Below the pieces are notes generated by a model. The model was not told the origin of the DNA and did not search any database. It saw nothing but the letters and a program-made list of their open reading frames with translations. The position numbers were made by a program, and so were the translations under genes. Source: an uncultured Poribacteria bacterium (GTDB taxonomy: Bacteria; Poribacteria; WGA-4E; PCPOR2b). Taken from it: a stretch of DNA of 64,000 nucleotides. Shown here piece after piece: positions 10,156 through 50,425 of the stretch (positions within the stretch are counted from its first letter, which is position 1; each line of letters starts with the position of its first letter). The stretch lies in contig OY282444.1 of assembly GCA_958296125.1 (NCBI GenBank), forward strand, positions 2,289,940 through 2,353,939, written 5' to 3'.

Positions 10156-11121
10156 ATGATCAAGTTTGTGATGATGCCGCCGTTGGACGACCTCAAGCGC
10201 GAGTTTGCCCCGCGTTTGGAGGAAGCCCTTCCGGAGTATCGAGTCGCTGTGCCCGAAACAGCTGAAGAAGCACGCCGTGAAATTGTTGATACTGACGCGG
10301 CATTCGGTTGGGTGCCACCTGATGCGCTGAAGGTCGCAACAAAATTACGGTGGCTGCAAAATCCGGATGCAGGTCCTTTTCCGGGCTACTATTACAAAGA
10401 ACTGATTGAGCACCCTGTGGTGGTCTGTAACCCACGCGGTATCTACTTTGACCATATCAGCCACCACATCATGATGTTCCTGCTCGGACTCTCTCGTGGA
10501 CTGCCCTACTATGTCGAAGCACAGCGAGAGCGAAGATGGGACCCGAATGCCCGTAAAAATGGGTACGTCTACCTCGCTGAATCAACCGCACTAATCTTCG
10601 GTGTGGGCGGCATCGGCCATGAAACCGCAAGGCTATGTGCAGCGTTTGGCATGACGGTAATCGGTGTAGAGCCGAGGCCCGAATATGACCTACCATTCGT
10701 CGAGATGCACCCACCGGGGGATTTGGATGCGCTGCTGCCGCGCGCCGATTTCGTGATAGCGACAACGCCGCATACGCCTGAAACCGAGGGGATATGGAAT
10801 GCCCAATGTTTCCGTCTGATGAAGAACACCGCCTACTTTATCAACATCGGTCGCGGCAAAACAATGAAAATTGACGACCTCGCGGACGCGGTCGAGGGGG
10901 GTGAAATCGCAGGGTGTGGCCTCGACGTATTCGAGACAGAACCGCTGCCGGCGGATCACCGTTTGTGGCACCTACCCAACGTTCTGCTCACGCCCCACAT
11001 TGCGGTGAAGGATGCAGAGAACATCCCTGAACGCCGATTTGAGATTATCCTCGAAAATGCGCGCCGGTTCGCCGCCGGTGAAACGCTACGCAACGTGGTA
11101 AACAAAGCGGCGTGGTATTAA
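10156..11121 (+). CDS. D-2-hydroxyacid dehydrogenase (NAD-binding)
   Basis: The 321-residue protein begins at ATG 10156, with AGAGGAAC upstream; an earlier in-frame start at 10030 would add an unrelated tail. The Rossmann motif is GVGGIGHETA around 150. Catalytic residues of the D-2-hydroxyacid dehydrogenase family are visible: Arg in INIGRGKTM, Glu in DVFETEPLP, and His in LLTPHIAV. The enzyme reduces 2-keto acids to D-2-hydroxy acids with NAD(P)H or the reverse. The substrate cannot be assigned. It follows the ThDP enzyme by 164 bases and precedes the DUF3604 gene by 30 bases, which suggests a shared catabolic route. Confidence 0.9.
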   Translation: MIKFVMMPPLDDLKREFAPRLEEALPEYRVAVPETAEEARREIVDTDAAFGWVPPDALKVATKLRWLQNPDAGPFPGYYYKELIEHPVVVCNPRGIYFDHISHHIMMFLLGLSRGLPYYVEAQRERRWDPNARKNGYVYLAESTALIFGVGGIGHETARLCAAFGMTVIGVEPRPEYDLPFVEMHPPGDLDALLPRADFVIATTPHTPETEGIWNAQCFRLMKNTAYFINIGRGKTMKIDDLADAVEGGEIAGCGLDVFETEPLPADHRLWHLPNVLLTPHIAVKDAENIPERRFEIILENARRFAAGETLRNVVNKAAWY

Positions 11122-11151
11122 AATCTCGCGCGCAACGTGGAGAAATAATTC

Positions 11152-13332
11152 ATGACGGAATCCGAAATCCGTGCCTTATACGGTTGGGCGGAGATTGCCC
11201 CGGCTGCCCCTGTTGTGGCGGGGTCTGTCGGCACATGGCATATCACCTATCATGTCGGCCGCTACGGCATCGATGACGGTGGCGTTGTTAAATTCGCTTG
11301 GCGAGATGTCAGCGATTGGGCGGCACCCCAATTTGAGAATCCTTCCGCACCGGAATATGCCTCCGTTTCTACAACAGGTCCGGCATCGCTGCGGGCGAGG
11401 TTTGAAAAGCAACGCTACATCCGTCCTTGGCGGCTTTGCGTTACCGTTGATGTGTTCGACGATTCCCTCTCCGAGGGGGATAGTATCACCCTAACACTAG
11501 GAGACACTTCAGGGGGGAGCTCGGGGAATCGGGCGCAGACCTTTTGCAAAGAAGCATTTGAATTTCGCGTCGCTGTCGATTGGTGTGGGACATGGGTTTA
11601 CACGGAGGTCGCATCGCCAAAGATTCCAATTATTAGCGGTCCCCCCCATCGGTTGGTGGTATTAGGGGCATCGGAAACCACACCTGATGAGGAAACATGG
11701 ATCGGGGTTAAGGCGGAAGATGTCTGGGGCAATCCTAGCACCGGGTATGCCGGGACGGTCCGACTCAACGCCGGGGGCCTGACAGGCTTGCCGGAAATTT
11801 ATCAGTTTCAGCCCACAGATCGAGGTGTAAAACGTTTTGAAGGCGTGAAAGCACCGAAGGTGGGAACTTACCGCGTGCAGACGACAGACTCAGAGAATGG
11901 GTTGGAGGCGGAAGGAAACCCACTCCACTGCGTGGCGGTTCGCGGCACCTATCAACCCTTCTGGGGAGACCTCCATGGCCAGAGCGAAGAAACTGTTGGA
12001 ACCAACCCGGTCTCCTCCTATTTTCGCTTTGCACGGGAGGCAGCACTCATTGATTTCGCCGGACATCAAGGGAATGACTTCCAAATCACCCAAGCGGTCT
12101 GGACAGAAATCCGAGAGCAGGCGAATACCCAATATGACCCCGGCAGATTTGTCACCTTTGTCGGATATGAGTGGTCAGCGAATACGCCGTTGGGAGGCGA
12201 CCGCAATGTCTACTATCCGGGAAATGATGGGCCCTTGCACCGCTCCAGTCATGTGCTAATTCCTGATAAATCGGATAGCGATACCGATTGCACCCATGTT
12301 ACAGAACTTTACGATACGCTGCGAAGCCATGTCAAAGATTCTCGGAACGGAGATGTCCTGCTCCTGCCCCATGTTGGGGGACGCTACGCCAACCTTAATT
12401 GGCACGACCCGATACTTGAACCGCTCATTGAGGTCTATTCCGAATGGGGGGAGTTCGAGTGGTTTCTGCGGGAAGCATTGGAGAAAGGCTACCGGGTCGG
12501 TTTCACCGCCGGGAGCGACGATCATAAGGGACGTCCCGGTGCCGCCCCGCCGGGGAGCGGTTCGTTTGGTGTGTATGGCGGATTGACCTGCATCTATGCG
12601 GTAGAGTTGACGCGAGAAGGGTTGTGGGAAGCCCTTAAAACCCGTCGATGTTATGGGACGACTGGAGGGCGCATCCTGCTTGAGGTCACCGCAGACGGTC
12701 AACCGATGGGAGCAGCGTATCAGGCGAGCCAGCCGCCGGAGATTGCTGTGAAGATGGTTGGCACCGCCCCCATCGAACGGATTGACATTTTCAGAGGGTT
12801 GGAACAGGTCTACACCTTCCCCACAACGACCGAACGGGCGGAAGACCAGATCCGTGTGGCGTGGTCAGGGCAGCGCATCCGGGCGCGAAATCGGCTCGTC
12901 CGATGGGACGGCAGCCTTGAGATAGATAGGGGACGGATTCTGGAGGCGGAGGGTTACGCCTTCGATTCCCCGGCTGAAGGGATTGAGGCCGTAACGGAGC
13001 GAACCGTGTCTTGGAAATCTGTGACAACCGGTGACGCTGACGGTGTCATTCTGAAGCTCGACGCGCCGCCTGAGACAACCCTCGATTTTAAGACACCGGT
13101 AGTGAATGGGGATGTCTCGCTTCAGGAGATTGGCGATTCGTCTATTGTCGTTGATGCCGGTGGGATTGATATGAAGGTTGTATTTGAACGGTTACCGTTG
13201 GGCATTGGCAGAGAAGCGGCGTTTACGTTTCGGGAGGCAGCGTTGCCCACGGGCTGCCATCCCTATTGGGTGCGAGTGTTGCAGACAGATGGAGCAAAGG
13301 CATGGACGAGCCCCATCTATGTGACCATGTGA
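11152..13332 (+). CDS. DUF3604 domain protein
   Basis: The 726-residue protein has a beta-rich N-terminal half (about 1-260) and then a DUF3604 region starting at YQPFWGDLHGQSEETVG, which resembles the HxH start of PHP-type metal hydrolases. Further conserved segments are DFAGHQGNDFQI, FVGYEWSANTPLGG, LLLPHVGGRYAN and FTAGSDDHKGRPG, the last two carrying likely metal-binding His and Asp. No signal peptide is seen. DUF3604 proteins have no settled reaction; the PHP-like motifs suggest a metal-dependent hydrolase. It sits 30 bases after the dehydrogenase and 54 before the D-threonine-aldolase-like gene, so cotranscription is likely. Confidence 0.88.
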   Translation: MTESEIRALYGWAEIAPAAPVVAGSVGTWHITYHVGRYGIDDGGVVKFAWRDVSDWAAPQFENPSAPEYASVSTTGPASLRARFEKQRYIRPWRLCVTVDVFDDSLSEGDSITLTLGDTSGGSSGNRAQTFCKEAFEFRVAVDWCGTWVYTEVASPKIPIISGPPHRLVVLGASETTPDEETWIGVKAEDVWGNPSTGYAGTVRLNAGGLTGLPEIYQFQPTDRGVKRFEGVKAPKVGTYRVQTTDSENGLEAEGNPLHCVAVRGTYQPFWGDLHGQSEETVGTNPVSSYFRFAREAALIDFAGHQGNDFQITQAVWTEIREQANTQYDPGRFVTFVGYEWSANTPLGGDRNVYYPGNDGPLHRSSHVLIPDKSDSDTDCTHVTELYDTLRSHVKDSRNGDVLLLPHVGGRYANLNWHDPILEPLIEVYSEWGEFEWFLREALEKGYRVGFTAGSDDHKGRPGAAPPGSGSFGVYGGLTCIYAVELTREGLWEALKTRRCYGTTGGRILLEVTADGQPMGAAYQASQPPEIAVKMVGTAPIERIDIFRGLEQVYTFPTTTERAEDQIRVAWSGQRIRARNRLVRWDGSLEIDRGRILEAEGYAFDSPAEGIEAVTERTVSWKSVTTGDADGVILKLDAPPETTLDFKTPVVNGDVSLQEIGDSSIVVDAGGIDMKVVFERLPLGIGREAAFTFREAALPTGCHPYWVRVLQTDGAKAWTSPIYVTM

Positions 13333-44413: not shown

Positions 44414-44572
44414 ATGTATAATAAGGTTAAGCTGCCACCTAAACCGGGGAAAACATCATTGCTGCAAAAGCGCGGAGGGTTTTACGTTGAAAAACCAAGC
44501 GGTTCTCAGCAAGCAATTTATCAAACAAGCACTTGCGGACAATTAGGATATATTGCGAAAATACGGTGTTAG
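44414..44572 (+). pseudogene. Possible decayed HicA-like toxin
   Basis: A 52-codon frame reads KLPPKPGK, then LLQKRGGFYVEKPSGSQQ, which recalls the HicA core (GK..LL.K.GF...rQkGSH) with a short deletion and the key His replaced. It overlaps the MntA remnant in another frame. The match is weak. Confidence 0.25.
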
Positions 44573-44690
44573 GTAGATTGGACTGTTCGGATTTTACGTG
44601 AATGGAACGGCACACGCCACGATTGCCTTTTCACGACTACATGGGGCTCGTTATATTGAAAAAGAGGTAGAGTATGTTGCGAACCTATGA
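44487..44690 (+). pseudogene. Decayed MntA-like nucleotidyltransferase (antitoxin) with two in-frame stops
   Basis: In one frame from TTG 44487 the translation reads FIKQALADN, stop, DILRKYGVR, stop, IGLFGFYVNGTAHA, and ends ARYIEKEVEYVANL, stop. This matches the ends of the MntA family, whose signature is IGLFGSY-x-RG followed by an Asp pair. Here the Ser of GSY is Phe, the Asp region is deleted, and stops lie at codons 20 and 30. MntA normally inactivates the HepT toxin by adding AMP groups. Confidence 0.6.
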
Positions 44691-44745
44691 CATATATCTT
44701 CAAGATATAGTGGAGGTAATTAATCGTATTGAATCGTATGTTTAA
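44674..44745 (+). pseudogene. HepT toxin fragment (N-terminal 23 residues)
   Basis: ATG 44674 opens MLRTYDIYLQDIVEVINRI and stops after ESYV. It matches the start of HepT (DUF86, HEPN ribonuclease), and overlaps the end of the MntA remnant by 17 bases, the usual MntA-HepT arrangement. The rest of HepT with the RxxxxH motif is missing. Confidence 0.55.
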
Positions 44746-44849
44746 CTGGTCATCGAGTACAAATTTAGCGTTACGGCTATCAACGTGTCAAATAAATTGG
44801 CAGATTTTGCACTGAACAGGTAGGCGGTACTTTATTAAGGATTTGCATT

Positions 44850-47402
44850 ATGAGCCAACTTTTCCCAAATTATGTCGATCTCTCACAGGAAGATTCCATT
44901 AATCAACTAGACTTAAGTACCCGTTCTTTCAATGTTCTTACACGCGCGGGTATTCAGACGATTGGAGAACTCATACAACTAGTTCAATCGGACGGGCTTC
45001 AAACTATTCCCGGTCTTAGAAGGGGATCTATTTTAGAAATAAAAAATAGGCTGGCCCGGGTGAAAATCTTCAATAATATTGTCAATGAGGCTGAAATTGA
45101 CAGTGTGTTCAAAGACCTTATCACCATACTAAAAGAGGAAATTCCAAAACGGGTTATTAGGGGACAATCACAATTAGTCTGCAAGCAGCTATCCAGGGGG
45201 TTACTCCATGAAGATGCGATTATTGGAGAAAAATCGATAGAAGATTGGCTCGCGGAGATTGAAACGACAGAGAGTAACCGCGTATATGAGGTGTTAGCAA
45301 CCATTTTGGGCTCCTCAGTTAACATCTGTGAGGAAATTGAATTCCTTCTCAATCGGATTCCTGGACAGTATCGTATAACTGTTTTGCTCTCTACGTATGG
45401 TTTAGAACCTAAAAGCTTAAAACAAACTGGGGAGGAGCTAGGCATCTCACATGAAAGCGTGAGGCAGATACGCAATGAACTCAAGGATAGGGCTACATCC
45501 ATCAGTAACCTAAAGGCTAAACCTGATTTACTTAGAATGCAGTCTGCTTTCCTCATCGCCGAAGATTTAGGTTTCGATATTACCTATGAGCAATGGGCGC
45601 AGCACATTCGATTATCAGGCCTCGTTGGTGATTGGAAATCTCAGGATTTTGTCGGTACGGATGCGGTCGAAGTTATGATTGCAATCTACAATCTACTTAC
45701 CGATTGTAAGATTCGCTGGCTACAAATGCCCAAGAAGCGGGTTATTAGGTGGCAATCACAATTAGTCTGCAAGCAGCTATCCAGGGGGTTACTCCATGAA
45801 GATGCGATTATTGGAGAAAAATCGATAGAAGATTGGCTCGCGGAGATTGAAACGACGGAGAGTAACCGCGTATATGAGGTGTTAGCAACCATTTTGGGCT
45901 CCTCAGTTAACATCTGTGAGGAAATTGAATGTGAGGAAATTGAATTCCTTCTCAATCGGATTCCTGGACAGTATCGTATAACTATTTTGCTCTCCACGTA
46001 TGGTTTAGAACCTAAGAACTTAAGACAAACTGGGGAGGAGCTAGGCCTCTCACGTGCAAGAGTGGGGCAGATACGCAATGAACTCAAGGATAGGGCTACA
46101 TCCATCAGTAACCTAAAGGCTAAACCTGATTTACTTAGAATGCAGTCTGCTTTCCTCATCGCCGAAGATTTAGGTTTCGATATTACCTATGAAAAATGGA
46201 CGCAGTGTATTCGGTCATCAGGCCTCGTTGGTGATTGGAAATCTCAGGATTTTGTCGGTACGGATGCGGTCGAAGTTATGATTGCAATCTACAATCTACT
46301 CACCGATTGTAAGATTCGCTGGCTACAAATGCCCAAGAATTTGCAGTATGCTGTACAACTTGCAGCTTCAGGCACACCAAATATCCCTGCGAAGATTCCA
46401 CACGCGCGTGATACTCTACCTGATGAAGTCAAAAGACTTATCAACCGGCATACAAGGTTTTCCGGAAGCGTATATGCTAGGTGGTTGTCTCAAGAAATGG
46501 AAATGGAGTTAGAAGAGGTAACAGATATATTGCAGGGGCTAGGATACAGAGCTCTTTCCGAAGGATGGTTTACTCTCAATCCTTCCCAAATCTCATATCG
46601 CTATGTTTTTCATCGTTGCCTGCGTAAAATGTTTCATTACTGTGGACGATTGGATATTGATGACATCTGTGCTGGTATCAGACATAGGGTATCAAGGTCA
46701 GGGTTCACTGAACCAGAATATCTAGTCAGCAAGGGCACTGTCCAATCGCGGTCAGTATTCCCTGTACCTCCACCTAATGTAATGGCTGAAATACTTAGGA
46801 TTGGAGGTTACCAGTATGACGATGAATTATACTATTGGGATGGAATCTATGAAAAGAGTCTAAACGCCGGCGAGGTCATCATAATGAATTGTTTAAAGCA
46901 AATCGGGCCTGTGTTGCATCATTCCGAATTAGTTCGCGCCTTTATAGAAAGCGATCTGTCTGTTCCGGCCTTATCTGCGACCCTAAATTATTCTCCCTTG
47001 TTTGATAAGATAGAATCGGGTTTATACAAACTGCGCGGGAGGGAAGTAACCTATCAAGACATAGAACGCGCCAAAGCTGCTAGAGAAATGCACCCACTTA
47101 GACCGGAGGTTGAATACGATACAAACGGAAACATCATCGTGAGTATTACCCTCAGCGCAATTGCTGTGGGCTCAGGTACAATTCTTTGTGAACGGTTTCC
47201 AGATCTAAGCGGTGAAGATTGGGAGTGCTACATCGATGGCGAGAGAGCCGGTGAACTAAGTGCAGTTGAGAATAAGTTTCGACGCTTGAAAAAGCCCTTT
47301 GAACTGCTAAATTGCCAGCCAGGAGAGCGGCTGAAGTTTATATTTAACACATGGGAAAGAAGGGTTGCAATCGAAAAGGAGGGGCTGGATGCAGCAAGCT
47401 GA
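44850..47402 (+). CDS. Large DNA-binding-like protein: alpha-CTD-like, two sigma region-4-like repeats, winged-helix-like C-terminal part
   Basis: The 850-residue protein begins with a helix-hairpin-helix like the RNA polymerase alpha C-terminal domain (SINQLDLSTRSFNVLTRAG, TIGELIQL, residues 15-75). Residues about 101-296 and 297-497 are two nearly identical copies of a 196-201-residue unit, each with a sigma region-4-like helix-turn-helix (TGEELGISHESVRQIRNELK and TGEELGLSRARVGQIRNELK). Near 672-725 a segment (LHHSELVRAFIESDLSVPAL, then SGLYKLRG) resembles HARE-type winged helices. It is the first gene of a three-gene operon with overlaps. I infer a role in DNA or transcription-complex recognition for the operon; no enzyme domain is visible. 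Confidence 0.8.
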   Translation: MSQLFPNYVDLSQEDSINQLDLSTRSFNVLTRAGIQTIGELIQLVQSDGLQTIPGLRRGSILEIKNRLARVKIFNNIVNEAEIDSVFKDLITILKEEIPKRVIRGQSQLVCKQLSRGLLHEDAIIGEKSIEDWLAEIETTESNRVYEVLATILGSSVNICEEIEFLLNRIPGQYRITVLLSTYGLEPKSLKQTGEELGISHESVRQIRNELKDRATSISNLKAKPDLLRMQSAFLIAEDLGFDITYEQWAQHIRLSGLVGDWKSQDFVGTDAVEVMIAIYNLLTDCKIRWLQMPKKRVIRWQSQLVCKQLSRGLLHEDAIIGEKSIEDWLAEIETTESNRVYEVLATILGSSVNICEEIECEEIEFLLNRIPGQYRITILLSTYGLEPKNLRQTGEELGLSRARVGQIRNELKDRATSISNLKAKPDLLRMQSAFLIAEDLGFDITYEKWTQCIRSSGLVGDWKSQDFVGTDAVEVMIAIYNLLTDCKIRWLQMPKNLQYAVQLAASGTPNIPAKIPHARDTLPDEVKRLINRHTRFSGSVYARWLSQEMEMELEEVTDILQGLGYRALSEGWFTLNPSQISYRYVFHRCLRKMFHYCGRLDIDDICAGIRHRVSRSGFTEPEYLVSKGTVQSRSVFPVPPPNVMAEILRIGGYQYDDELYYWDGIYEKSLNAGEVIIMNCLKQIGPVLHHSELVRAFIESDLSVPALSATLNYSPLFDKIESGLYKLRGREVTYQDIERAKAAREMHPLRPEVEYDTNGNIIVSITLSAIAVGSGTILCERFPDLSGEDWECYIDGERAGELSAVENKFRRLKKPFELLNCQPGERLKFIFNTWERRVAIEKEGLDAAS
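45150..46340 (+). repeat. Recent in-frame tandem duplication (588 and 603 bases)
   Basis: The stretch from CGGGTTATTAGG at 45150 recurs at 45738 with few differences. The second copy carries a 15-base internal duplication (TGTGAGGAAATTGAA) that adds five residues. Differences cluster in the helix-turn-helix (HESVRQ against RARVGQ) and just after it. Confidence 0.93.
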
Positions 47403-47967
47403 TTTTTCAAAATCACAACTTGTGACAATAGCGGTAGCACTCTTAGGCGGAGATACCGTGTATGTCGATCGTGAAGATGTTGCTCTCAAGGTGAATGATA
47501 TTGCACCGGGCCGTTTTAATTGGCGCAAATACCCTGAACAAATTGACCTAGACGCTGTCGGCGGATCTTTGAGAACCGCAAAAAAGCGAAACTTAGGATT
47601 GGTGGTTGGAAACAATACAAAAGGTTGGATGCTCAGTCCCACAGGCTTGAAGTGGATAAAAACTGTAGACCTCACTGCTGTTCACAACGAACTTCCAGTT
47701 AAACACAGGAAAGCTTCTATCTCTGCAAATCAGGAGCTAGAACGCAACCGCTTGTTCAACACAAAAGCGTATAACCTATTCGTTGAAGGCAAATCTAAAG
47801 CGATAACCGTTCAAGATTTCTACGAGTTTGCACGAGTGAATGAGTATTTTCAGACCAAAACCAGACAGAGGCGATACGCAATCATAGCGAACGCGGTAAG
47901 CAATGATGACACATTATCGAAATTGTGGGATTTGCTTCAAACGAAATTTTCAAAGGAGATAAAGTAG
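47389..47967 (+). CDS. Unknown protein, middle gene of the GHKL operon
   Basis: The 192-residue protein starts at ATG 47389 with AAGGAGG six bases upstream, overlapping the end of the large gene by 14 bases. Its stop shares one base with the next start (TAGTG). The first 100 residues (VTIAVALLGGDTVYVDREDV, then GWMLSPTGLKWIKTV) have a pattern compatible with a winged helix that reads like a regulator or adapter. The C-terminal half is helical and charged. I do not recognise the family. Confidence 0.8.
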   Translation: MQQADFSKSQLVTIAVALLGGDTVYVDREDVALKVNDIAPGRFNWRKYPEQIDLDAVGGSLRTAKKRNLGLVVGNNTKGWMLSPTGLKWIKTVDLTAVHNELPVKHRKASISANQELERNRLFNTKAYNLFVEGKSKAITVQDFYEFARVNEYFQTKTRQRRYAIIANAVSNDDTLSKLWDLLQTKFSKEIK

Positions 47968-49499
47968 TGGCGAGACAACGCTCTATTGAGGTTACTTCGC
48001 ATGTGGCTAGGGATTTCCTTCAGAACGCTGCATATTTTAACACCATGCCCAAGGTGGTTTGGGAATACGTTGCGAACTCGCTGGATGCCGTCAAAGATGA
48101 CATCTTAACAGTCATCGCGGTTGAGCTAACAAGCCATGAAGTTAGCATATCTGACAATAGTCGCGGCATGTCCAGAAAAGAGTTGGGCAGCTTCTTCCAG
48201 ATGCACGGGGAGAACATTCTTAGAAAACAGGGAAGGAGAGTCCGAGGACGATTTGGCACAGGCAAATGCGCCGCCTTTGGCTTGGCAAATTCCCTTCGTA
48301 TTGAAACAACTCAGGCAGGCTTGAGGAATGTCGTTGAATTACACAGAAAAGACATTGAAAAAGCGCGAAATGGCGAACCGTTTGCTGTTCGAGACATCGA
48401 GATTAATCAGCGGACGGATGAAGACGATGGAACAATCGTAGTCATTTGCAAGTTCAACCTAAAACGTCTGGACATTGACAAGGTAATTTCATACGTTGAG
48501 CGCCATCTCAGCCGTTACCGCACCCGTGCCCATGTTACTGTAAACGGGCATGTGTGCAAGTTCAAAGCCCCACCGTTTGTGGCACAATTTGAGCGTTCTC
48601 CGCCAACAGAAGTTGCCAAACATATTGGTAATGTATCCCTGAGTGTGAAAGTATCTCCCGCGCCATTAGACGATGATACGCGAGGGATTGATATTTTATC
48701 ACACGGCATCTGGCATGAAACAACGCTTGAAGGAATTGAGCGGAAAGAGAACGCGAACCAAATTTTTGGACAGATTGATGTGCCGGTCCTAGAGGACGGT
48801 GAGTGGCCCATTCCAGCTTTTGACAATACGAGAAATAACACGCTGAACCGACAAAATCCCATAGTTGTGGTACTATTGGGTTGGCTTTCAAAGGAGCTTG
48901 AAGAAATAAGATCAGAGCTTGTGAAACAAGCTCGTGAAAAGCGTCGGTCAGAGATAGAAGCAAAGCTGGCGAAAGAAGCTGATAGGATCTCGAATATCCT
49001 CAACCAAGACTTCGCTCAACAAGAGATGGAACTTGAAATGACTCGAAGGGTTAAACCTGTTAGGAGGAGAAGCGTACCCGGAAAAACTCCGAAACCGAAA
49101 CCACCTACACCCCCAGACAACAAACCCAAGCCGAGAAAGAATCCAAGCGGAAAGAACGAAAAACGGAGAAAAGCAGTTTTCTCGATTGAATTTGAGCGTG
49201 TCACCGCCGAGGAAAATCGATCAAGGTATGCTGGAGATACAAAGACGATTTATATAAACTTAGACCATCCCCAGATCGCTAGTGCATTTGAAACTGGAGG
49301 AAATTCTACCGACTCACGAGAATTTCGAGAAGTTTGCTATGAAGTTGCAGCGGTTGAATATGCGATTGCTTTACCGTATGAGAAACTTGAGAAGGACGAG
49401 TTATATCCCGCAGAAGACGCGCTGTTTGATGTAAAAGAAATCATCGATCGGGTAACTAAGCGGTTTATGGAGCACTTTCATAATGTAGGTCGTGTGTGA
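47967..49499 (+). CDS. GHKL (Hsp90/MORC-like) ATPase
   Basis: The 510-residue protein starts at GTG 47967, whose first base is the last base of the upstream stop; AGGAG lies eight bases before it. The ATP-binding GHKL motifs are clear: N box VVWEYVANSLDAVKDD near 30, G1 box ISDNSRGMSRKE near 61, and G2 box RGRFGTGKCAAFGLA near 92. A transducer-like region follows, then a helical segment (about 310-360), a Pro/Lys-rich linker (about 365-410) and a conserved C-terminal domain (FREVCYEVAAVEYAIALPYE). Related ATPases (MutL, Hsp90, MORC) clamp around DNA or clients on ATP binding, and relatives occur in bacterial conflict operons. No nuclease domain is visible. Confidence 0.9.
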   Translation: MARQRSIEVTSHVARDFLQNAAYFNTMPKVVWEYVANSLDAVKDDILTVIAVELTSHEVSISDNSRGMSRKELGSFFQMHGENILRKQGRRVRGRFGTGKCAAFGLANSLRIETTQAGLRNVVELHRKDIEKARNGEPFAVRDIEINQRTDEDDGTIVVICKFNLKRLDIDKVISYVERHLSRYRTRAHVTVNGHVCKFKAPPFVAQFERSPPTEVAKHIGNVSLSVKVSPAPLDDDTRGIDILSHGIWHETTLEGIERKENANQIFGQIDVPVLEDGEWPIPAFDNTRNNTLNRQNPIVVVLLGWLSKELEEIRSELVKQAREKRRSEIEAKLAKEADRISNILNQDFAQQEMELEMTRRVKPVRRRSVPGKTPKPKPPTPPDNKPKPRKNPSGKNEKRRKAVFSIEFERVTAEENRSRYAGDTKTIYINLDHPQIASAFETGGNSTDSREFREVCYEVAAVEYAIALPYEKLEKDELYPAEDALFDVKEIIDRVTKRFMEHFHNVGRV

Positions 49500-49570
49500 A
49501 ACTCATAATGGACCGATATATTATAACGCAAGTTGCCACTTTTAGTGGTTATTACACAAGGAGCACAATC

Positions 49571-50425
49571 ATGCGGACGACACATAAATGGAGTGATGAA
49601 ACGGCAACAATTTGTATTGAGGGATTGAATCAAACGGTTCGGATGCTCCACGTCACCGATTCACACATTGCCCTCATTGATGACCGTGATGCAGAACATA
49701 TAGAGGCTTGTACCGGAGCGTGCGAGCGTTTTGAATCGAGAGAACAAATCTTTGATACGCTCATGGAAGAAGCAAAAGAGAGTTCTCTGGATCTGGTTGC
49801 GTTGACAGGTGATATGGTGCATTTCCCCTCTCAGGCGGGTGTCGAAAGCCTTGTAAGGTCGATTGATAAGGCAGGTGTCCCGGCACTGTATACCTCCGGA
49901 AATCACGACTGGCATTATCCGGGTGTGGAGGGACGTGGGGAATTACGGGAAGTGTGGTGGGAGGCGTTGGCACCGCTGCATCACGGGCAGGCGGCGTATG
50001 CCCGACATGAAATCAGTGGCATCCAATTTTTGTCGGTTGATGATTCCATCTATCAAGTGAACGCGGAGCAGACAGCATTTGTGGATACACATTTGGCAAA
50101 TGGAATGCCGACGGTGCTGCTCACCCATATCCCTTTGAGCCTTCCAACGTTACGGGAGCCGACATTAGAACACTTTGATGCCCCAATTCTAATCGGTGAT
50201 CCAGAATGGGGCCCTGAGAGTCGAGATCGATGGGGCACGGGAGAGAATCTACCCCCAACCTTAGAATTTGCGCGCACTCTTGTGAGGGCGGAAAACCTTG
50301 TCGCTGTTTTTTGTGGTCACATTCATTTTGCACATACGGATAGCATCAATCTAAATGCTGTCCAGTATGTAGGAGCTCCTGGGTTTGATGCCAACAGCCG
50401 GTTAGTGGAGTTCCGTCCACTGTAG
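49571..50425 (+). CDS. Calcineurin-like metallophosphoesterase
   Basis: The 284-residue protein starts at ATG 49571 with AAGGAG seven bases upstream; an earlier ATG at 49496 lacks this. Metal-site motifs appear in order: LHVTDSHIAL, LVALTGDMVHF, YTSGNHDWHY, LLTHIPLSLP and FCGHIHFAHTD. The family hydrolyses phosphomonoesters or phosphodiesters. The substrate is unknown. It begins 71 bases after the GHKL gene but has its own good ribosome site and an ordinary metabolic look, so I do not count it as part of the defence-like operon. Confidence 0.9.
   Translation: MRTTHKWSDETATICIEGLNQTVRMLHVTDSHIALIDDRDAEHIEACTGACERFESREQIFDTLMEEAKESSLDLVALTGDMVHFPSQAGVESLVRSIDKAGVPALYTSGNHDWHYPGVEGRGELREVWWEALAPLHHGQAAYARHEISGIQFLSVDDSIYQVNAEQTAFVDTHLANGMPTVLLTHIPLSLPTLREPTLEHFDAPILIGDPEWGPESRDRWGTGENLPPTLEFARTLVRAENLVAVFCGHIHFAHTDSINLNAVQYVGAPGFDANSRLVEFRPL

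Follow-up and report, generated by a model that had tools for sequence, protein, structure and literature searches.

Restriction systems and eukaryotic MORC silencing are both known to involve GHKL ATPases, and those ATPases with a GHKL-S5 architecture (MutL, Hsp90, GyrB, MORC) close as dimers upon ATP binding. How bacteria direct such ATPases to DNA is a question made testable by the three-gene operon described here, A-B-C, found in an uncultured Poribacteria bacterium (GCA_958296125.1, contig OY282444.1, positions 2,289,940-2,353,939 of the forward strand; this stretch of 64,000 nt is referred to as the window). GHKL-S5 proteins have been tied to restriction systems, and the motif GhXhhpXXRhl in S5 is the signature of MORC proteins (Iyer, Abhiman and Aravind 2008, PMC2292703). 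MORC2 is reported to be a DNA-compaction ATPase (PMC12216690). PglW of BREX type 2 carries an alpha-CTD-like domain (the C-terminal domain, CTD, of the RNA polymerase alpha subunit) followed by winged helices (PMC12839542).

A-B-C appears to be a conflict module that targets DNA, self-contained and spread by horizontal transfer, which is uncharacterised and related to the restriction-associated GHKL ATPases; to this reading we give a probability of roughly 0.55. Since some of its relatives lie in restriction-modification operons, A-B-C would probably represent an undescribed system against invading DNA. The three genes, listed with the ratio of non-synonymous to synonymous substitution (dN/dS) where it supports the call, are:

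44850..47402, + strand: gene A, 850 aa, with an alpha-CTD helix-hairpin-helix (HhH), two sigma region-4 units and a conserved C-terminal region (Pfam, linkage, dN/dS ~0.2)
47389..47967, + strand: gene B, 192 aa, with an N-terminal winged helix and a helical C-terminal part (AlphaFold2 model, homologues in every complete locus)
47967..49499, + strand: gene C, a 510-aa GHKL-S5 ATPase with a long helix and a conserved C-terminal domain (Pfam, alignment A3, model and fold search)

The original prediction, made from the window alone, had described these three genes with overlaps of 14 nt (A/B) and 1 nt (B/C). Both overlaps are found again in the open reading frame calls and the three-gene observation is confirmed; given the low dN/dS, it is more than chance. 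A strong ribosome site had been ascribed to each gene, which is correct for B and C but not for A, whose Shine-Dalgarno-like AAGGA is weaker. C starts with GTG and B with ATG; the B start is placed at the ATG at 47389 rather than at the TTG at 47365 because AGGAGG directly precedes the ATG.

The C protein contains a HATPase_c_3 domain (Pfam, E 8.2e-17) and two conserved segments:

48063..48266, + strand: ATP-site motifs, namely N box E33..N37..D40, G1 D63..G67-M68 and G2 G94..G97-T98-G99-K100
49170..49490, + strand: conserved C-terminal domain ('KTIYINLDHPQI...EYA'), a family without match

The N, G1, G2 and GT motifs are invariant or nearly so in 16 homologues (alignment A3), so that the intact N, G1 and G2 boxes noticed earlier stand. 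The same homologues bear out the conserved C-terminal domain, in which F405, R418, I428, N431, H434, Q436, A461, E464, Y465 and R495 are invariant. In a Foldseek search with the AlphaFold2 model of C, the best hits among solved structures are Hsp90/TRAP1, MORC2-4 and GyrB, with alignments that span the GHKL-S5 modules. Searches of C against Pfam and NCBIfam, by PDB sequence and by fold revealed no nuclease, and the conserved C-terminal residues do not form a D...ExK nuclease pattern. Compared with the Poribacteria relatives and the Chloroflexota locus L049, the linker before the C-terminal domain (window 49085-49170) is shorter by 25 to 35 residues.

The A protein combines DNA-contacting parts of RNA polymerase, as had been claimed: RNA_pol_A_CTD and Sigma70_r4 (E 5.5e-9, two stretches; Pfam) are both kept in 12/12 near-complete A homologues (alignment A2). 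Sigma region 2 and the alpha N-terminal dimerisation domain were not found in A by Pfam; region 4 and the CTD stand alone. Inside the gene, ~590-600 nt are duplicated in tandem, which the original prediction missed, and the copies are 94-98% identical. The features of A are:

44889..45056, + strand: alpha-CTD-like HhH, residues 14-69 (RNA_pol_A_CTD 3.6e-13, Pfam)
45147..45734, + strand: duplication copy 1, with the sigma region-4 helix ISHESVRQI
45735..46337, + strand: duplication copy 2, with the sigma region-4 helix LSRARVGQI and a 15-nt micro-duplication
46857..47045, + strand: conserved C-terminal block, winged-helix-like by eye, a candidate fold (alignments A2, A4)

The duplication is recent, and none of similar size was seen among the aligned relatives. 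The copies differ in 20/196 codons, 13 of these 20 differences being non-synonymous, and seven of the 13 cluster within 17 codons that cover the sigma recognition helix (scan permutation p ~0.0008 for a scan size picked after seeing the data, 0.003-0.01 for wider ones). The TRERVRQ core conserved in relatives has been eroded differently in each copy (ISHESVRQ and LSRARVGQ). Such differences may have arisen because the copies diverged in DNA specificity or because constraint was relaxed. We also asked whether A might be a duplicated pseudogene and rejected this because its frame is open and its dN/dS is ~0.2.

The 'winged-helix-like part' formerly seen in A is real insofar as the conserved C-terminal block exists, but neither Pfam nor PDB profiles recognise its fold (the latter gave chance matches), and the clear winged helix is the one modelled in B. 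Most A relatives have 1 to 6 detected alpha-CTD-like HhH units. Six are present in L049 (4327-8412), where A reaches 1362 residues and also has TPR-like repeats and a CPxC pair resembling a zinc site.

B matches no family in Pfam, PADLOC or NCBIfam, and its PDB sequence profile returned chance glutathione-transferase matches and nothing else. Its AlphaFold2 model (mean predicted local distance difference test, pLDDT, 85) shows the winged helix at the N terminus and the helical C-terminal part; a fold search with this model gave weak winged-helix matches (E 0.016 or worse). In L084, L086, L087, L089 and L098, distant relatives of B immediately precede divergent GHKL proteins, and no A is present. 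It therefore looks as if B and the GHKL ATPase were the older pair and A a reader added later. In three of these loci, from Chloroflexota (L084:5322-8167, L086:5320-8421, L087:5532-8588), the pair has a constant neighbourhood and the B-like protein carries a long linker rich in lysine, alanine and proline. A small gene of ~80 residues, without Pfam match, precedes A-B-C in L044 (5424-5669) and the B-GHKL pair in L098 (263-490); it is possibly an extra component.

The three genes travel together. When C was searched for in one genome of each species, 16 loci were found, spread over Poribacteria, Chloroflexota, Bacillota, Actinomycetota and one alphaproteobacterium; most of them also hold B and A. 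A profile of B, run against 400 Chloroflexota, 346 Actinomycetota and 398 Pseudomonadota genomes, added complete or truncated loci in the first two groups (L078, L079, L080 and L095, L096, L097, respectively) and, in Pseudomonadota, no A-B-C locus beyond the one already known. Altogether, A, B and C occur together in 20 genomes or records from five phyla (Poribacteria, Chloroflexota, Bacillota, Actinomycetota, Alphaproteobacteria), a count that takes in loci split over contig ends (L031/L090, L033). Homologues that are not linked elsewhere had been named as evidence against the operon; the survey instead finds linkage. In Poribacteria, the same 5/85 genomes contain full-length C, B and the C-terminal part of A, other C matches in this group being partial GHKL matches. 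The order is A-B-C in most loci and B-C-A in L048, while A is divergent in L078 and L095. The trees of C and B have a common deep split, which sets L048, L078, L079, L095 and L097 (clade II) apart from the rest (clade I, including the window).

Some relatives are incomplete. The Chloroflexota C homologues of L045, L046 and L047 (at ~9000-10600 of L046/L047 and at the start of L045) have no neighbouring A and no B anywhere in their genomes; they have a proline-rich N-terminal extension and share downstream genes for SH3-like and FecR-like proteins (by eye). A decayed A relic with two stop codons (G042:C17:34364-35098, L113) occurs in a Poribacteria genome without B or full-length C.

A-B-C is, on comparative sequence evidence, a horizontally acquired insert of ~4.7 kb: it is missing from all five congeners of the host, in which the isochorismatase, phosphoesterase and S49 peptidase genes that flank it here are neighbours. 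Its G+C content is 0.44 versus 0.51 for the rest of the window. The ends, derived from the empty-site alignment, are approximate and no target repeat is established. The insert and the locus beside it are:

44823..49510, unstranded: inserted module, A, B and C alone, approximate ends (empty sites in five congeners, composition)
44480..44745, + strand: decayed MNT/HepT toxin-antitoxin remnant beside the insertion point, a pre-existing locus outside the module

The remnant corresponds to the decayed toxin-antitoxin genes that had been noted beside the operon; an intact pair occupies the same place in congener L100 (NTP_transf_2 6e-15, HepT-like 8e-31). The operon is flanked by the isochorismatase and phosphoesterase genes (Pfam). 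The latter (49571-50425) was tried as a fourth gene and rejected because it is in place in 5/5 congeners without the module.

In the C tree, L049 groups with the Poribacteria copies with full support, far from other Chloroflexota, and the B tree groups it likewise. This indicates that A-B-C has moved between phyla. All three genes are under purifying selection, with dN/dS versus relatives of ~0.06-0.2 for B and C and ~0.2 for A, although dS is near saturation in some pairs.

Restriction genes accompany one whole branch of the family. DNA methyltransferases lie near 5/5 clade II loci with readable flanks: a C5 enzyme in L048 (Pfam 6e-57), Eco57I types in L079, L095 and L097 and an N4/N6 type in L078. 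L079 has, on one strand, a restriction endonuclease gene (PADLOC REase_II 9e-11), a methyltransferase gene and then A-B-C. L048 has, also on one strand, a methyltransferase gene, an Eco29kI-like gene (2.7e-6, just below the Pfam cut-off) and then B-C-A. L097 adjoins Dsr1 and a PLD-SNF2 helicase. The contrast between 5/5 clade II loci and 0/~13 clade I loci is suggestive, but it compares related loci on short contigs, and the clade I count is drawn from the best 25 PADLOC families. The original statement that there is no nuclease domain holds for the three proteins of the window but not for the operon family, since the apparent operon of some relatives also encodes a restriction enzyme. These genes, together with mobility, support the proposed role in conflict with invading DNA; the more specific suggestions of transcription sensing and an ATPase clamp would be compatible with the domains present.

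Other conflict genes are found within clade I. In L041, a REase_II-like gene (10655-11446; PADLOC 8e-22; ELKLMGKGNPES motif by eye) starts ~35 nt after C; no methyltransferase was seen near it, which is odd for an active restriction enzyme. AbiEi adjoins L049 and SoFic adjoins L044. In L038 (5211-11029), A-B-C has a HigB toxin gene on one side and a gene for a HigA-like helix-turn-helix protein on the other, a layout that would fit insertion into a toxin-antitoxin operon.

Because GHKL-S5 ATPases close as dimers and two DNA-binding partners are fixed to C, C is most plausibly an ATP-driven DNA clamp. By analogy, C, as a paraMORC-like GHKL-S5 ATPase, would dimerise on ATP binding and close on DNA. 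The winged-helix protein B would be its constant DNA-binding partner in the complex, and A a variable reader that uses the parts by which RNA polymerase contacts promoters, in unit numbers differing among loci. Together with B, A would load C on certain DNA targets, possibly invading DNA that is rich in promoters or actively transcribed, and the closed ATPase would block or compact this DNA, including in stand-alone copies. In the restriction-linked branch, cleavage would be supplied by the partner restriction enzyme. It is possible to assay one and the same core both together with a nuclease and on its own. Should A-B-C prove protective without cutting, a connection would exist between immunity in bacteria and DNA compaction of the MORC type. 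A stricter proposal, in which the RNA-polymerase-mimicking A and B recognise invader promoters and load a MORC-like clamp that shuts the DNA down independently of any nuclease, is rather unlikely; if true, it would be a bacterial parallel of eukaryotic MORC silencing.

Several observations weigh against a conflict module of this kind. The window locus and most of its clade are without methyltransferase or nuclease, and no methyltransferase model is found among 77 clade I neighbours in the best 25 PADLOC families listed. Several relatives sit among housekeeping genes, and searches of phage, plasmid and viral contigs gave no full-length relative. Recruitment of A to promoters or transcribed DNA is deduced from its domain types only, and both sigma region-4 helices in the window have lost residues that relatives keep, owing perhaps to a change of specificity or to decay. 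It is possible, if somewhat unlikely, that A-B-C is an accessory that regulates or helps restriction systems, by controlling expression or by activating or restraining the endonuclease, with the stand-alone copies serving unlinked systems or being leftovers. The methyltransferases beside all readable clade II loci, two of them whole restriction operons, the REase-like gene adjoining C in L041 and the match of the PADLOC REase_II and NCBIfam BbrUII models to the GHKL part of C are consistent with such a role. The lack of methyltransferase models around clade I, within the PADLOC families listed, speaks against it, and the low dN/dS of the stand-alone Poribacteria copies argues against leftovers.

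As a transcription regulator, A could imitate those parts of RNA polymerase that contact DNA and, together with B, repress or redirect host promoters, C being an ATP switch. The constant pairing of alpha-CTD and sigma region 4, and the fact that the most diverged codons between the repeat copies are in the sigma recognition helix, fit such a regulator, yet A has neither sigma region 2 nor the alpha N-terminal domain and so shows no part for binding RNA polymerase. A host regulator would not typically be so patchily distributed, with empty sites and with restriction genes nearby. The GHKL kinase switch CapK/CapS has STAS-domain partners (PMC13373217), and no STAS domain was matched in A, B or C. 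We consider this explanation improbable. Least probable by far is a selfish or toxin-antitoxin-like module kept by addiction: A-B-C is a small mobile operon near toxin-antitoxin loci (the MNT/HepT remnant in the window, HigB/HigA-like genes in L038, AbiEi in L049), but none of the three proteins was recognised as belonging to a toxin family, A is a large protein of several domains, and toxin-antitoxin neighbours are common landing sites.

Taken as a mobile DNA-targeting conflict module, A-B-C can be set beside the systems already described. As originally stated, it is not a recognised named defence system: at family cut-offs in PADLOC 2.0 and NCBIfam there is no match, and the partial matches fall far below threshold. 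No description of the operon was found in the literature searched, which had few subscription journals. Bacterial alpha/sigma fusion proteins were reportedly mentioned by Aravind and Iyer in 2012 in connection with HARE-HTH domains; A likewise combines RNA polymerase alpha and sigma features, but no HARE-HTH was detected in it by Pfam or PDB profile, and A may overlap with those proteins. With region 4 but no region 2 found, A differs from sigma factors, and with the CTD but no N-terminal dimerisation domain found, from the alpha subunit. A resembles the alpha-CTD/winged-helix part of PglW models weakly (PADLOC, NCBIfam; 10.4 bits versus a cut-off of 990 in NCBIfam), whereas the window operon holds neither a kinase nor a NERD nuclease nor any further BREX gene. 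MzaB of the MZA system scores 19.1 bits against a cut-off of 850.

The best sequence match of C is to the BbrUII/HgiDII restriction enzymes (NCBIfam NF050001; E 9.7e-17, residues 39-196), but it covers the GHKL part only, reaches 60.7 bits versus a cut-off of 550 and leaves the remainder of the enzyme unmatched. VcSduA, a Shedu protein with GHKL (paraMORC3; PMC12137116), is likewise an anti-phage protein with a GHKL ATPase, but C has no DUF4263 or other PD-(D/E)XK domain (Pfam, NCBIfam, Foldseek). Unlike paraMORC4, the system has no TIR domain matched by Pfam in A, B, C or the scanned flanking genes. C resembles MORC proteins in its intact GHKL motifs, its GHKL-S5 architecture and its fold matches to the MORC2, MORC3 and MORC4 ATPase modules, but the S5 motif GhXhhpXXRhl is present in 0/21 C proteins tested. 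With the paraMORCs, C shares N-terminal GHKL and S5 domains, intact ATP motifs, a patchy distribution and an association with restriction-modification (PMC2292703); it combines GHKL and S5 without the MORC motif, with restriction genes beside clade II and none at the window. A-B-C differs from the paraMORCs in having no SFII helicase in the operon and no recognised nuclease, TIR or HxH C-terminal domain in C. It differs also in its fixed partners, B and an A with RNA-polymerase-type DNA-binding parts, and in its many stand-alone copies. A-B-C is a small unit with what may be a dedicated reader built of promoter-recognition parts, occurring both inside and outside restriction operons.

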